Assembly: GCA_945875915.1 (NCBI GenBank)
Contig: CAMCMT010000014.1
Coordinates: 1 to 59,940, forward strand
Reading direction: 5' to 3'
Source of the DNA: Synechococcus sp. UW140
Lineage (GTDB): Bacteria > Cyanobacteriota > Cyanobacteriia > PCC-6307 > Cyanobiaceae
Length of the DNA stretch: 59,940 nt
Shown here: positions 18,145 through 56,014 of the stretch, in pieces
Position numbering within the stretch: the first letter of the stretch is position 1
How the letters are laid out: each line of letters opens with the position of its first letter
The notes under the pieces: model-generated
Databases searched by the model: none
The model's input: only the letters and a program-made list of their open reading frames with translations
Told to the model about the DNA's origin: nothing
Made by a program: the position numbers and the translations under genes

Positions 18145-21018
18145 GTGGCTGCGGAAGCCCCCCAGCAGCTTTCGCCCGTGCCAGGCCCCGGTTTATCCGA
18201 AACAGCCCTGCAGGGCAACCTGTTTGGGGCCCCCGAAGAGCCCAAGCCGGCGGCCCGGCTGGCCCGGCCCGGGGCCCTGGCCGATCCCGGCGAACTTGAC
18301 GATGCCGCCCTCGAGGCCGATGCCAGTAGCCGGCCCCGGCGGCGGCGCCAAACCAAGGCAGGGGCGGCTGGTCCCGATCCGACGGGTCCCACCCCTACGG
18401 AACCAGCCCCCGCCGGACTTGCCACACCCGATCCAGGCCCCCCGGATGGAGCCCCCGCTGAGTTGCCAGACCCAGCCAGCGAAAGCAAGCCCCCAACGGC
18501 TGCGCCCCCCGACAGCGACCTGCCCCCTTGGCACCACCATTCCCTGGTGGATCCCCAGCAGCTGCCGCCGATGCTGCGCCACTACGTGGAGCTCAAGGCC
18601 GCCCATCCCGAGCGGCTGTTGCTCTACCGGCTCGGCGATTTTTTCGAATGCTTCTTTGAAGACGCGATCACCCTCTCCCAACTGCTGGAGCTCACCCTCA
18701 CGGGCAAGGAGGCGGGCAAGGCCCACGGGCGGGTGCCGATGGCGGGCATTCCCCACCACGCGGCCGAGCGCTACTGCGGCGACCTGGTGCGCCGCGGCTT
18801 GTCTGTCGCCCTTTGCGACCAGCTCGAAGCCACCGCCGCCAAGGGAGCCCTGCTCAAGCGCGACATCACCCGGGTGCTCACCCCCGGCACGGTGATCGAG
18901 GAGGGGATGCTCTCGGCGCGGCGCAACAACTGGCTCTGCGGAGTCGTGGTGGAGGGCAGCCGTTGGGGCCTGGCGGTGGCGGACGTCAGCACCGGCGAAT
19001 TCCGGGTCACCGAGCGCCAGGGCAGCGACCTGCTGCACCAGGAGCTGCTGCAACTGGACGCCGCCGAAGTGGTCTGGGCCGGCGAGGGGAACCGCCCCGG
19101 CTGGTGTGCCGAAAACCTGCGGCTAACGCCCTCGGCCCTCACCCCCTTCGCCGGGCCTGAGGCCAGGGCTTGCCTGCTTAAGCGCTTCAAGCTGGCCAGT
19201 CTGGCGGGCCTGGGCCTGGCCGACCTGCCCCTGGGCCAGCGGGCCGCTGGCGGGCTGCTGCGCTATCTCGACGACACCCAGCCGGGCGCCGCCATCCCCC
19301 TGGACCTGCCCACCACCTGGCATGCAGGCGACCAGCTGGTGCTCGATGCCCAAACCCGCCGCAACCTGGAACTCACCCGCACCCAGCTAGGCGGGGGCGT
19401 ACAGGGGTCCCTGCTGTGGGCCCTCGATCGCACCGTCACGGCCATGGGCGGCCGCTGCCTGCGCCGCTGGATCGAGGCGCCCCTGGTCGATCGGGCCGCC
19501 ATCGGCGCCCGCCAGGACGGGGTGAGCGAACTGGTGAACCAACGCCCCCTGCGCCAGGCCCTGCGCCGGCTGCTGAGGCCCATGGGCGACCTGGAACGGC
19601 TCGCAGGTCGGGCAGGGGCGGGCAGCGCCTCCGCCCGGGACTTAGTGGCCGTGGCCGATGGGCTCGAACGACTGCCCCAGCTGGCCTCCCTGCTAGGGCA
19701 GGCCAGCAGCCCGCCCCTGGCAGCCCTTGCCAGGCCCTGGCCTGAGCTGGCCGAACTGGCGGCCCTGGTCCGCCACCACCTGGTGAATACGCCGCCCCTG
19801 GCCCTCACCGAGGGAGGCCTGATCCACGACGGCGTCGACAGCCGCCTCGATGGCCTGCGCAACCAGCTCGATGACCAGGACGCCTGGCTGGCCGAGCAGG
19901 AAGCCCAAGAGCGCCGCGCCAGCGGCATCGCCAACCTGCGCCTGCAGTACCACCGCACCTTCGGCTACTTCCTCTCGGTGAGCCGCGCCAAGGCAGCCGC
20001 CGTGCCGGAGCACTGGATCCGCCGCCAAACGCTCGCCAACGAGGAGCGCTTCGTCACCCCCGAGCTCAAGGGCCGCGAAGGCCGGATCCTGCAGCTCAAG
20101 GCCCGCGCCGCCCAGCGGGAATTCGAGCTGTTCAGCGAGCTGCGCAGCCAGGTGGGCGCCGAGGCCACGCCGATCCGGGCCGCGGCCCGGCTGGTGGCCG
20201 ACCTCGATGCCCTCGCCTCCCTGGCCGAGGTGGCCGCCACCGGCGGCTATTGCCGGCCCGAGATCACGGCCGGGCGCGAGCTGCTGATCGAAGCCGGCCG
20301 CCATCCGGTGGTGGAGCAGCTGCTTGTCGAAAGCCCGTTTACCGCCAATGGCATTGCCCTGGGCGGCGGCCCGGCGCCGATCGGCCGCCCCGACCAGGAC
20401 GGCAGCCCCCCGGACCTGCTCGTGCTCACGGGCCCCAACGCCAGTGGCAAAAGCTGCTACCTGCGCCAAACGGGGCTGCTGCAACTCATGGCCCAGATGG
20501 GCAGCTGGATTCCGGCCCGCTCCGCCCAGCTCGGCCTCGCCGATCGCATCTTCACCCGCGTCGGTGCCGGCGACGACCTGGCCAGCGGCCAGTCCACCTT
20601 CATGGTGGAAATGGCCGAAACGGCCAACATCCTTCACCACGCCAGCAGCCGCTCCCTGGTGTTGCTCGATGAGATCGGCCGCGGCACGGCCACCTTCGAT
20701 GGCCTTTCGATCGCCTGGGCCGTGGCCGAACACCTGGCCGTTGAGATCCAGGCCCGCAGTGTGTTTGCCACCCACTACCACGAGCTCAATGAACTCGCCG
20801 AGCTGCACGCCAACGTGGCCAATGTGCAGGTGCTAGTCGAGGAAACGGGCGACGACCTGCTGTTCCTACACCGGGTCGTGGCCGGAGGCGCCAGCCGCAG
20901 CTACGGCATCGAAGCCGCCCGCCTGGCCGGGGTGCCGGCGGCAGTCGTGCTGCGGGCCCGCCAGGTGCTGGGACGGATCGAAGCCAACAGCCATGTGGCG
21001 GTGGGGTTGCAGCCCTAG
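18145..21018 (+). CDS. mutS: DNA mismatch repair protein MutS
   Basis: MutS recognises mispairs and starts mismatch repair. Visible parts are domain I with the mismatch-reading Phe-x-Glu ([16 protein letters not shown]), the lever and clamp helices, and the ATPase: [13 protein letters not shown] (Walker A about residue 763), [34 protein letters not shown] and ATHYHEL. The first about 130 residues are a Pro/Ala-rich extension absent from E. coli MutS. It contains LQGNLFG, which fits the QxxLF sliding-clamp motif. The C terminus ends soon after the ATPase, so the tetramerisation tail is missing. The start is taken at GTG 18145; the frame is open further upstream to 17968. Confidence 0.93.
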
Positions 21019-32167: not shown

Positions 32168-32278
32168 CAGGGGAAGGGGAAAAAAAGGGAAAGGGATGCC
32201 GAACTGAATGCAATGCCTCCGGACCCTTGTTTGCAGATTGGGCTGCTGGGAGGTGGAGGACTGGGATGGGCCTTGGCG

Positions 32279-33208
32279 TCAGGTAGGACGCAGGGCTGCC
32301 AGGGCTGTGGTTAATCGTTCGCGTACATCACTGGAGGCGGAGACCAGGGGAAGACGGGGGGCACCCACGGGCCAGCCGCTCAACTCCAAGGCGGCTTTGC
32401 AAGGAATCGGATTGGTGGTCAAAAACAGGGCCTTGCAAAGGGGCAGTAGCCGTTCGTGTAAGGCCAGGGCGGTGGAATGATCGCCGGCCAGGAAAGCGGT
32501 GACCATCTGGCTGATCTCGCGGGCCACCAGATGGCCGGCCACACTCACGACGCCCACGGCACCCACGGCCAACATCGGCAGGGTGAGGGCGTCATCGCCG
32601 CTATAGATCGCCAGCCGCTCGCCGCAAACGGCCCGCAATTGACTCACCTCCTCGGTGGTGCCGCTGGCGGCCTTAAAACTCACCACATTGGGCAGGTCAA
32701 GTAGGCGGGCCGTGGTCTCGGGGCTGAGGCTGGTGCCTGTGCGACCGGGAATGTTGTAAAGCATTAGGGGTAGCTCGGGCGCCGCCAGGGCCACGGCCCG
32801 GAAATGGGCTTCCAGCCCCTCCTGGGGCGGCTTGTTGTAGTAGGGCACCACCACCAGCGCCCCATCGGCGCCGAGGACCGCCGCCTGGCCGATCGCCTCG
32901 ATCGCCTCAGCGGTGCAATTACTGCCGGTGCCCGCCAGCAGGGCAGCGCGGTTGCCCACGGCAGCCTTGACGGCGGAGAAGAGTTGGTGTTGCTCCTCCC
33001 AACTGAGGGTGGGAGATTCGCCAGTGGTGCCGCAGAGCACCAGACCATCGCAGCCCTCGTCCACCAGGTGGCTGGCCAGCCGGCCGGCCAGGTCGAGATC
33101 CACGGCGCCGTCAGCGCCAAAGGGGGTGACCATGGCCGTCACCACCCGGCCAAAGGGGGCGGGGGAGGCGGCCCCAGGGGTGAGAGTGCTTGCAGGCAAA
33201 CCAGTCAT
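32279..33208 (-). CDS. dapA: 4-hydroxy-tetrahydrodipicolinate synthase
   Basis: DapA condenses aspartate semialdehyde with pyruvate, the first step of the lysine and diaminopimelate branch, and so feeds peptidoglycan synthesis. The 309-residue TIM barrel has [17 protein letters not shown], Tyr151 in [14 protein letters not shown], and the Schiff-base Lys179 in [13 protein letters not shown]. Its ATG overlaps the asd stop by four bases, so asd and dapA form one translationally coupled unit, with rnj next downstream after about 110 bases. Confidence 0.96.
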
Positions 33209-34293
33209 CGGCCCACTCCCGCAACCGCTTCGCCAGCTGGGGCGCCAGCCCGAGCCGCAGCGGGATCGAGCAGCAGCTCGGCGATCTGGATGGCGTTAAG
33301 GGCCGCACCCTTACGGATCTGGTCGCCGCAGAGCCAAAGCTCCAGGGCATTGGGCTCGCTGAGGTCCTGGCGGATGCGGCCCACGGCCACCGGGTCCCGA
33401 CCGGTGACATCGGTGGGCATGGGGAAGCGGTTTGAGCTGAAATCCTCGATCAACTCAACGCCCGGCGCCTGGGCCAACAGGGCACGGGCCTCCTCCACCG
33501 GGAAAGGTTCGTGGAATTCGATGTTGAGGGCCTCGGAGTGGGCCCGCAGCACCGGAACCCGCACACAGGTGGCCGTGACCCGCAGCTCGGGCAGGCCCAT
33601 GATCTTGCGGGTTTCATGGAGCATTTTCAGCTCCTCTTCGCAGTAGCCGTTGTCCTGCAGGGGGGAGTTGTGCAGGAACAGGTTGAAGGCGAGCGAATAG
33701 GGCAGCACGGTGCTTTCGGGGCTGCCGCCATCGAGCACGGTCTGGCTGAGGTTGCGCAGCTCTTCCATGGCGCGGGCGCCGGCGCCGCTAGCCGATTGGT
33801 AGGTACTCACCACCACCCGGCGCAGGGGCCGCCGGGCCGCCAGCGGCGCCAGGGCCAGGGTCATCAAGATCGTGGTGCAGTTGGGGTTGGCGATGATCCC
33901 CTGGTGGCCAAAGGCCGCTTGGGGGTTCACCTCGGGCACCACCAAAGGCACCTGGGGATCGAGCCGAAAGGCGCTGGAGTTGTCGATCACCAGGGCGCCG
34001 GCCGCCGCCGCTATGGGGGCCCATTGCTTGGACACCGATCCGCCGGCCGAGGCCAACACCAGATCAACCCCTATAAAGGCTCCGGCACTCACCGACTGGA
34101 TGGGCCAGGAGCGGCCATTCCATGTCAACGACTGACCGGCCGAGCGGGGTGAGGCCAACAGCACCAGCTCCGCCACCGGGAACTGGCGCTCGGCCAGCAG
34201 GGTGAGCAATTCCTGGCCCACGGCCCCGGTGGCACCGAGCACGGCCACCTTTAGGGGCCGGTTGGGGAGGGAACTGGCGGCAGGGAGGGACAA
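33205..34293 (-). CDS. asd: Aspartate-semialdehyde dehydrogenase
   Basis: Asd reduces aspartyl phosphate to aspartate semialdehyde with NADPH. The 362-residue protein has the nucleotide-binding [18 protein letters not shown], catalytic Cys139 in [12 protein letters not shown], and the substrate-binding region [36 protein letters not shown] follows, with the catalytic His. It is the first gene of the asd-dapA pair. A long non-coding stretch lies between its start and the rightward tig gene. Confidence 0.96.
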
Positions 34294-34970
34294 GGGCGGC
34301 AGGGGAGAAAAGGAACGGTTGGGGCTGGAGCAGGGCTTGGTAGCAGGCTGGACTTAGCTCGTAAAGGCTTGGAATTCGGGAAAATCGAGGAGCCGATGAC
34401 GGCTGCTGGGTCCTGAAGAAGCTGGTCTGAAACCCTGGCTGGCTGGTTCGGCCCTACAAACCATTGGACTCAACAAACCCCTGGCCGTGGAAGACTGGGA
34501 CCAGGGAGCAGGATCCTGGGAGTGGAAATGGGGCTGGCGCAGGCTTGGGGCTTCGGGGGGAACCGGTTTTCCGGTAAGGAAACCTGACGATGGGGCTTTG
34601 CTCTAGATCGAAAGGACCCTGGAGCAGGAGCTCAGGATCGGGGCGACTGAATCGTCGAGGGCGTTGGCCTGGCGGGTAGGGCTTTGGGCTGGCTCAGCAG
34701 GGCTTTAGCTGAGCAGATTTAGGGCTGGATCTGGACTGGGGCTGGCAGGGGGCCTGGGGCTAGGTCGGTGGGAACGGGTAAGTAAGGGGACGTATGGGAG
34801 ACGAAGGATTGGGGCAGCGGCCGGTCCAACCCCCCACCTCAGGGGATGGTCTCAACAATACGCGGCCGTTTGGTCCTTGGCGAAGGGACCCAGGGGGCTC
34901 GTGAGGTCAGTTCCTAGGATCGTTGGCTGCCCCGCCGATCCGGTCCGGCGTTCCTCCCCACCAGCCCGCC
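34294..34970. other. 677-base G-rich non-coding stretch between asd and tig
   Basis: I see no plausible gene in either strand here. The plus strand is strongly G-rich: in the three lines 34501-34560, 34621-34680 and 34741-34800 I count 92 G against 31 C. GGGCTGG-type words recur, and there are two perfect hairpins: ACCGG-tttt-CCGGT at 34562-34575, and GCTCAGC-N9-GCTGAGC at 34692-34714. It must include the divergent asd and tig promoters, but is far longer than needed. A structured non-coding RNA or a long tig leader is possible. It does not contain recognisable RNase P RNA or tmRNA signatures. Confidence 0.5.
34692..34714 (+). other. Perfect 7-bp hairpin in the asd-tig gap
   Basis: GCTCAGC at 34692-34698 pairs exactly with GCTGAGC at 34708-34714 around a nine-base loop. 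The following bases AGATTTAGGG are only weakly T-rich. It could be a terminator of a small upstream RNA or a structural element of a tig leader. Confidence 0.4.
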
Positions 34971-36371
34971 ATGAGTCCTGCCGCCAGCGCCGCCGTCCCC
35001 GCCAGCCTGAAGGTCACCACCAGCCCTCGCCCGGGCAGCCGCCTGGCCCTGGAAGTTGCCGTTCCGGCGGGCCGCAGCCAGTCCAGCTACGACGCCGCCC
35101 TGGAGAAACTCAGCCGCAGCATCAAGTTGCCCGGCTTCCGCAAGGGCAAGGTGCCCCGGCCGGTGCTGATGCAACAAATCGGCCCCCTGCGGGTGCGCGC
35201 CACCGCCCTGGAGGACCTAGTCGATTCCGTGTTCCGCGACGCCCTGGCCCAGGAGGCGATCCCGGCGATCGGCCAACCGGAACTGGCCGGCGGCTTCGAA
35301 GCCCTGCTGGAGCGGTTCGCCCCCGGCGAGGAACTCACCTTGGTCTTAGAGCTGGATGTGGAGCCCACCCCCAGCCTGAAAGTCACCAAGGGGCTGGTGG
35401 TCGCCAGCGAAGCCGTCAGCTACGACCCCGCCCGGGTCGAGGAATGGATCGAACAGTCCCGCCAGAAGCTGGCCAGCCTGGTGCCGGTCGAGGACCGGCC
35501 CGCCCAGGCCGGTGATGTGACCGTGGTCGACTTCAGCGGCACCTTCAGCGATGACGGCAGCCCAATCAGCGGCGGCAGTGGCGAAGGCATGGAAGTGGAA
35601 CTGGAAGAGGGCCGCATGATCCCCGGCTTCGTCGAAGGGGTGATCGGCATGGCGGTAGGCGACACCAAGACCGTGGCCTGCCAGTTCCCCGAGGAGTACC
35701 CCCAGGAGGACTGCCGCGGCCGGGCCGCCAGCTTCGTGCTCACCCTCACCGACCTCAAAACCAAGGAGCTGCCCGAGCTCGACGACGCCTTCGCCCAGCA
35801 GGCCAGCGACAAGGAAACCCTCGCCGAGCTGCGCACCGACCTGGAAGCCCGCCTCCAGGAAGACGCCGAACGGCGCGACAAGGCCAACCGCCATGACGCC
35901 CTGCTCGACGCCCTCGTGGAGCAGCTCGTGGTGGAACTGCCCGAAACCCTGGTGCAGGAAGAGATCCGTGCCCTGCTGGAGCAGACCGCCGGCCAGCTGG
36001 CCCAGCAGGGCATGGATGTGCGCAAACTTTTTACCCCTGAGCTGGTGCGCAGCCTGCGGGACACCTCCCGGCCCGAAGCCGAAAAGCGCCTGCGCCGCAG
36101 CCTGGCCCTCAAGGCCCTGGCCCTGGCCGAAGCGATCGAACTGGCCGAGGAGGAGCTCGACACCAAGCTCAAGGAGCTCTCCCGCAACCTCAGCGAGAGC
36201 GGCAATATCGATCCAGCCCGCCTGCGCCAGGCCGTGCAGGAAGACCTGATGCGCCAGAAGCTGCTCGACTGGCTGGAAAGCCACAGCACCATCACCGCCA
36301 AGACCGCCGAGGACCTGGCTGGGGAGGATGGGGCCATCGCTGGCGGGACCGACGCCGCCGAGCCCGCTTGA
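34971..36371 (+). CDS. tig: Trigger factor
   Basis: Trigger factor is the ribosome-bound chaperone and peptidyl-prolyl isomerase. The N-terminal ribosome-binding segment contains the signature [14 protein letters not shown] (usual GFRxGKxP). The FKBP-like domain follows with [17 protein letters not shown] and [18 protein letters not shown], and the C-terminal helical arms extend to about residue 440. The 466-residue length is normal. ATG 34971 is chosen; an in-frame ATG at 34923 would add 16 residues. It leads the tig-clpP-clpX order widely conserved in bacteria. Confidence 0.95.
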
Positions 36372-55440: not shown

Positions 55441-55567
55441 TTGAGAGCTCAGCTGGTACCTATGACTAAGGCCTAACCTTTCAAGCTAAAACTTTGCTCC
55501 CAGGCATGGCGAATCATTGCCCATTCGCCCACGGGAGTGATCGGCCTAACCCTGACCAGGAGGGCGC

Positions 55568-55774
55568 TTAGCCACGGGGCTTTATCAACTGCAGCACCTG
55601 GGGACCAAGACTGCCGGCGCGACGCTCACAATCAAGGGCCCGCAAAATCAAGAGGGCGGCTGCTTCGACATCACCCTGCTCAGCTGCAGCTTCAGCAGCG
55701 GCCTCATGAACGGAAGCCTGACCAATCAGGATCTTTTTCTTATCACCGCTAACGGCCGGTAGGACTGATTGCAT
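55568..55774 (-). CDS. Small hypothetical protein
   Basis: This protein of about 68 residues begins MQSVLPAVSGDKKKILIGQA and is helical with an Ala/Glu-rich centre (EAAAEAAAEQGDVEAAALL) and a final ALDCERRAGSLGPQVLQL. The central stretch resembles a single helix-turn-helix of TPR type. It has no known domain. A start five residues upstream (55789) is possible. It is less certain than the larger genes. Confidence 0.5.
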   Translation of the reverse strand: MQSVLPAVSGDKKKILIGQASVHEAAAEAAAEQGDVEAAALLILRALDCERRAGSLGPQVLQLIKPRG

Positions 55775-56014
55775 GTCTGGCCTGAACAAAACTGATACCT
55801 TCTTAGAAATATACTGCCAGGCGAAACATTTTGGCTTGGGAAGCTGGAAACCTTGATCAACCGGCCAAGATCAAGCAAGCTTGCTGGACCAAGCAGAGCA
55901 ATCTCTGGGTGACCGAGGGTGCTGATCCGGGCATGGCAGAGCTGGTTTGCTGATCAAACCCAGTCCCTCAATATCGGTAGATCAGGCGTGGATGGGGCTG
56001 CCCCGATTCAGGGG

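Follow-up and report, generated by a model that had tools for sequence, protein, structure and literature searches.

Predicted divergent promoters beside tig and a candidate long C-rich asd leader in the asd-tig gap of a freshwater picocyanobacterium

The 677-nt gap between asd and tig (34294-34970) in the window, that is, the whole 59,940-nt stretch of DNA analyzed here, is probably explained by two divergent promoters located next to tig and a long, C-rich, noncoding leader of the asd-dapA-rnj transcript, a reading that draws on comparative sequence analysis. The host is a freshwater picocyanobacterium represented by a 99.9%-complete genome, and the closest named relatives of its trigger factor are those of lake Synechococcus-type MAGs (Baikal-G1, UW140-like), with 93-99% identity. 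In the window, asd is the first gene of a minus-strand operon that continues with dapA and rnj (RNase J), whereas tig opens a plus-strand operon that continues with clpP and clpX. The TTG start of asd is found at the corresponding place in every family genome in which asd was located. This conserved weak start codon (34293) is preceded by in-frame stops just upstream in many family genomes.

The gap is noncoding and G-rich on the plus strand (265 G vs 161 C), as the first-pass annotation had claimed. The 550-nt segment starting at 34251 has a GC skew of +0.37 (z 5.0) and ranks at the top of the 48,740 segments drawn from 1.25 Mb of the same genome; the next-ranked segments, among those inspected, lie mostly inside long open frames. 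A strong C skew was observed in L115:1-20000, where a single open frame of ~6,666 codons with Ala/Ser/Gly-rich repeats spans the whole stretch and probably encodes a giant cell-surface protein. The asd-tig gap is the longest identifiable in the window, but the description of it as by far the longest was overstated, given another stretch of ~574 nt at 55441-56014; the latter adjoins tRNA-Gly(CCC) and contains no convincing gene. Similarly, the word GGGCTGG, described as recurring, is present in five copies in the gap but is common elsewhere in the window as well. No conserved ORF was identified in the gap among six congeners, and within the predicted asd leader, no minus-strand ORF retains its start and stop in all congeners. 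A hidden gene or leader peptide was therefore rejected. The only ORF with both ends conserved (34846-34915, plus strand) is disrupted by frame-shifting indels, and the tig -10 element supplies its stop codon.

Alignment of the region upstream of tig from 29 genomes sampled within the family revealed a predicted tig -10 element in which T, A and T at positions 1, 2 and 6 are present in all genomes, with positions 3-5 varying; in many marine genomes, the element reads TAAGGT. A second element faces asd, with the plus-strand ANNNTA pattern retained for A in 26, T in 27 and A in 25 of 28 genomes. In some genomes, this element is changed to TAAGCT, TAGGGT or TAAGGT, so that the TANNNT form is retained. 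In the gap, no other TANNNT site is shared by all six congeners, whichever strand is read (Table 1), so that one -10 element (TANNNT) per strand is kept in relatives, as in a divergent sigma-70-type promoter pair. No recognizable -35 element accompanies the predicted pair, in line with cyanobacterial promoters, in which the -10 is present and the -35 is generally weak (PMC3219970).

Table 1. Genes, predicted promoter elements and leader segments in and around the asd-tig gap (window coordinates)
Feature	Position	Strand	Details
asd, aspartate-semialdehyde dehydrogenase, TTG start	33205..34293	-	NCBIfam TIGR01296, 409 bits over cut-off
asd-proximal end of predicted leader	34294..34331	-	Pyrimidine-rich, no Shine-Dalgarno-like word
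Body of predicted leader	34332..34784	-	Fast-evolving; C-/pyrimidine-rich on asd sense strand, G-rich on plus
Conserved hairpin at predicted 5' end of asd transcript	34800..34838	-	16 pairs, kept within genus
Predicted asd TSS	about 34847-34850	-	From TATTGT
Predicted asd -10, TATTGT (plus ACAATA)	34855-34860	-	ANNNTA conserved in 6/6 congeners
Predicted tig -10, TAGGAT	34915-34920	+	Positions 1, 2, 6 read T, A, T in 29/29
Predicted tig TSS	about 34926-34928	+	From tig -10
Predicted short tig 5' leader, ~44 nt	34927..34970	+	Follows from tig -10
tig, trigger factor	34971..36371	+	NCBIfam TIGR00115, 382 bits over cut-off

The spacing of the two elements is informative. Across the family, the asd-facing element lies 28-74 nt from the tig -10, whereas the stretch separating it from the asd start codon ranges from 72 to 729 nt: most of the small marine-type genomes have about 100-107 nt, and members of this genus have 537-729 nt. 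In Vulcanococcus limneticus LL (L088), the predicted leader measures 348 nt. Because the element keeps near tig while the distance to asd varies, the extra DNA was inserted between the predicted asd promoter and asd. The tig -10 is only ~50 nt upstream of the tig ATG, which limits the tig leader to the short segment predicted in Table 1. By contrast, if the asd-facing element is used, the G-rich body becomes the asd leader (~555 nt here). We infer that both elements act as promoters and that transcription covers the body; alternatively, the element on the minus strand might bind a regulator of tig. Thus, a long regulatory leader, one of the possibilities raised in the first-pass annotation, may well be present, but is predicted for asd on the minus strand rather than for tig-clpP-clpX on the plus strand; the broader suggestion that the region goes beyond an ordinary promoter gap is partly borne out, with the strand and the owner reassigned.

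The composition of the predicted leader recurs in the longer leaders of the family. The 29 that reach 150 nt or more all favor C over G on the asd strand, with a C skew of 0.12-0.38 and a pyrimidine content of 55-67%, and distant leaders share this bias yet do not align. Leader length correlates with skew (Spearman 0.67), a relationship that is descriptive rather than independent evidence because length, G+C and skew rise together and the genomes are related. In the same operon, the dapA-rnj spacer (32168-32278) shows a like excess on its sense strand (46 C vs 19 G), and upstream sequences across this genome lean weakly toward the same bias. The Shine-Dalgarno signal is low genome-wide (16% vs 9% in shuffled sequences). 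Polarized substitutions, considered with respect to whether the skew is decaying or maintained, amount to only about 18 events. The predicted leader is far longer than the median 5' leaders of 27-29 nt in Prochlorococcus and 52 nt in S. elongatus (PMC6091082), which counts against the long-leader reading. Literature searches returned nothing on a cyanobacterial asd leader.

Conservation along the gap is sharply uneven. The tig promoter and leader (34900-34970) are 92-99% identical between congeners and the window, the predicted 5' end of the asd transcript shows 77-91% identity, and the segment at 34265-34299 has a mean pairwise identity of 95% among the six congeners; the promoter blocks are more conserved than the tig fourfold sites. 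The body, in contrast, falls below these sites (for example, 57% vs 89% identity between congeners) and contains many indels, a comparison that indicates lack of constraint rather than positive change because tig fourfold sites could be under constraint as well. Two congeners carry tandem arrays at the same place in the asd leader (L068:1684-1768, 13-nt unit, 6.5 copies; L069:2148-2187, 6-nt unit, 6.7 copies), which illustrate how the body grows.

The rapid divergence of the body, its richness in indels and the coincident position of these arrays are also what would be expected if the body were untranscribed filler grown by slippage and duplication, with asd driven by a nearby, lineage-specific promoter. 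We consider this explanation rather unlikely: the genus shares no -10-type site close to asd, whereas the distal one is conserved across the family, and filler alone fails to explain the one-directional skew of all 29 long leaders. A second, non-conserved asd-proximal promoter may nevertheless exist. It is decidedly improbable that, as the first-pass annotation proposed, a structured, G-rich noncoding RNA or a long leader of tig is specified by the plus strand. The RNA-like strand is often the purine-rich one, per-base folding is more stable on the plus than on the minus strand, and folding z scores of -1.3 for the window and -2.4 for the genome G004 were obtained relative to shuffles. However, most genomes have z near 0, with the body folding about as stably as its dinucleotide shuffles, on the plus and minus strands alike, in most of the 11 genomes analyzed; G001, in which each strand scores z near -4 to -5 but tandem arrays are present, stands alone. 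Both reported hairpins were verified as perfect, one of 5 bp at 34562-34575 (ACCGGTTTTCCGGT) and one of 7 bp at 34692-34714 (GCTCAGCAGGGCTTTAGCTGAGC), but neither is kept in congeners. Furthermore, the six congeners share no TANNNT on the plus strand ahead of the G-rich body, and the tig -10 is located downstream of the body. Rfam yielded no credible match for the gap. Elsewhere in the window, ARAGORN predicts a tRNA-Ser(GCT) at 19646-19739 that is not listed by the Rfam tRNA model at the gathering threshold.

Alignment folding of related asd-tig gaps did yield one hairpin kept within the genus, at the predicted 5' end of the asd transcript. In this hairpin, 92.7% of the cells are paired on the minus strand vs 77.9% on the plus strand, and 48-64% when the structure is slid; the difference between the strands arises from G-U pairs and fits an RNA read from the minus strand. 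The hairpin contains zero double-sided changes, so that it is conserved without demonstrated covariation. With neither a covarying fold nor a match to a known family found in the gap, the reading as a structured cis-regulatory RNA or riboswitch, and with it the structured-RNA claim, is not supported.

Two further explanations were weighed. The G-rich strand might act as DNA, forming a quadruplex or another strand-asymmetric structure between the operons, and five of the six congeners carry a quadruplex-type motif in a position similar to that of the one near 34770-34798. This possibility appears very remote, given that the number of motifs is close to that in shuffled G-rich sequence, that the motif is absent in L068/G001 and missing from three of five further genera examined, and that its recurrence falls within a block that is conserved anyway for the asd 5' end. 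Alternatively, the C-rich, G-poor leader could serve as a rut site of a Rho-dependent attenuator controlling asd-dapA-rnj. Rut regions are characterized by an excess of C over G on the transcript, which a leader with C exceeding G over hundreds of bases ahead of a biosynthetic gene resembles. Rut sites need Rho, however, and the Rho RNA-binding domain (PF07497) is absent from this 99.9%-complete genome, whereas the same search was positive in 9 of 14 control genomes. The absence of Rho excludes a Rho site, and the rut reading is thus refuted, with almost no probability left to it, unless another factor substitutes for Rho.

Under the divergent-promoter reading, both promoters would sit no more than about 120 nt from tig, dividing the two operons. 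The plus-strand TAGGAT would drive tig-clpP-clpX via its short leader, and the minus-strand TATTGT would drive asd-dapA-rnj via the ~555-nt leader. The asd RNA would begin with the hairpin, continue into a C-rich, pyrimidine-rich, G-poor and mostly unstructured body, and meet a TTG start that is not preceded by a Shine-Dalgarno-like word. What the body does is a matter of conjecture: it might act by composition, for example, through S1-type ribosome loading or as a nuclease entry site, or, on a par with both ideas, it might be functionless and grow by local duplication. S1-type loading on a pyrimidine-rich leader would be reasonable here because of the TTG start that lacks a Shine-Dalgarno-like word; the literature search yielded no paper that directly connects S1 with leaders of this kind in cyanobacteria. 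Nuclease control is another possibility because the leaders of RNase genes in Synechocystis are long and cleaved: rnj (slr0551) has a 455-nt 5' UTR, also seen as NC-117, and the rne 5' UTR is long as well (PMC10989914, PMC10989929).

The Synechocystis leaders and the predicted asd leader would be alike in being long untranslated leaders on transcripts of RNase genes, in this case one carrying rnj. The former directly precede rnj or rne, whereas here the leader would precede asd, two genes upstream of rnj. The promoters, with one -10-type element per strand and no -35, resemble those of S. elongatus and Prochlorococcus (PMC3219970). Unlike in those divergent regions, however, the pair sits right beside one of its two genes, and a single, very long and strongly skewed leader would separate it from the other. 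With rut sites of Rho-dependent terminators, the leader shares the long C-rich, G-poor transcript stretch. Most likely, the gap reflects essentially ordinary cyanobacterial gene control and is of modest interest. What changes is that a noncoding stretch is reassigned to the asd operon, with both start sites predicted throughout the family.

If the body is transcribed, leader composition would persist while the sequence turns over, and selection on leader composition would become testable in Rho-less bacteria. A bolder proposal, which we regard as clearly unlikely, is that in freshwater picocyanobacteria selection acts on the composition of the leader rather than its sequence, with a long, expandable, pyrimidine-rich and G-poor RNA ahead of asd-dapA-rnj recruiting a pyrimidine-binding, S1-like factor or feeding RNase E/J cleavage. 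If true, lysine-pathway output would be tied to the level of RNase J, whose gene belongs to this operon, in cells that lack Rho.
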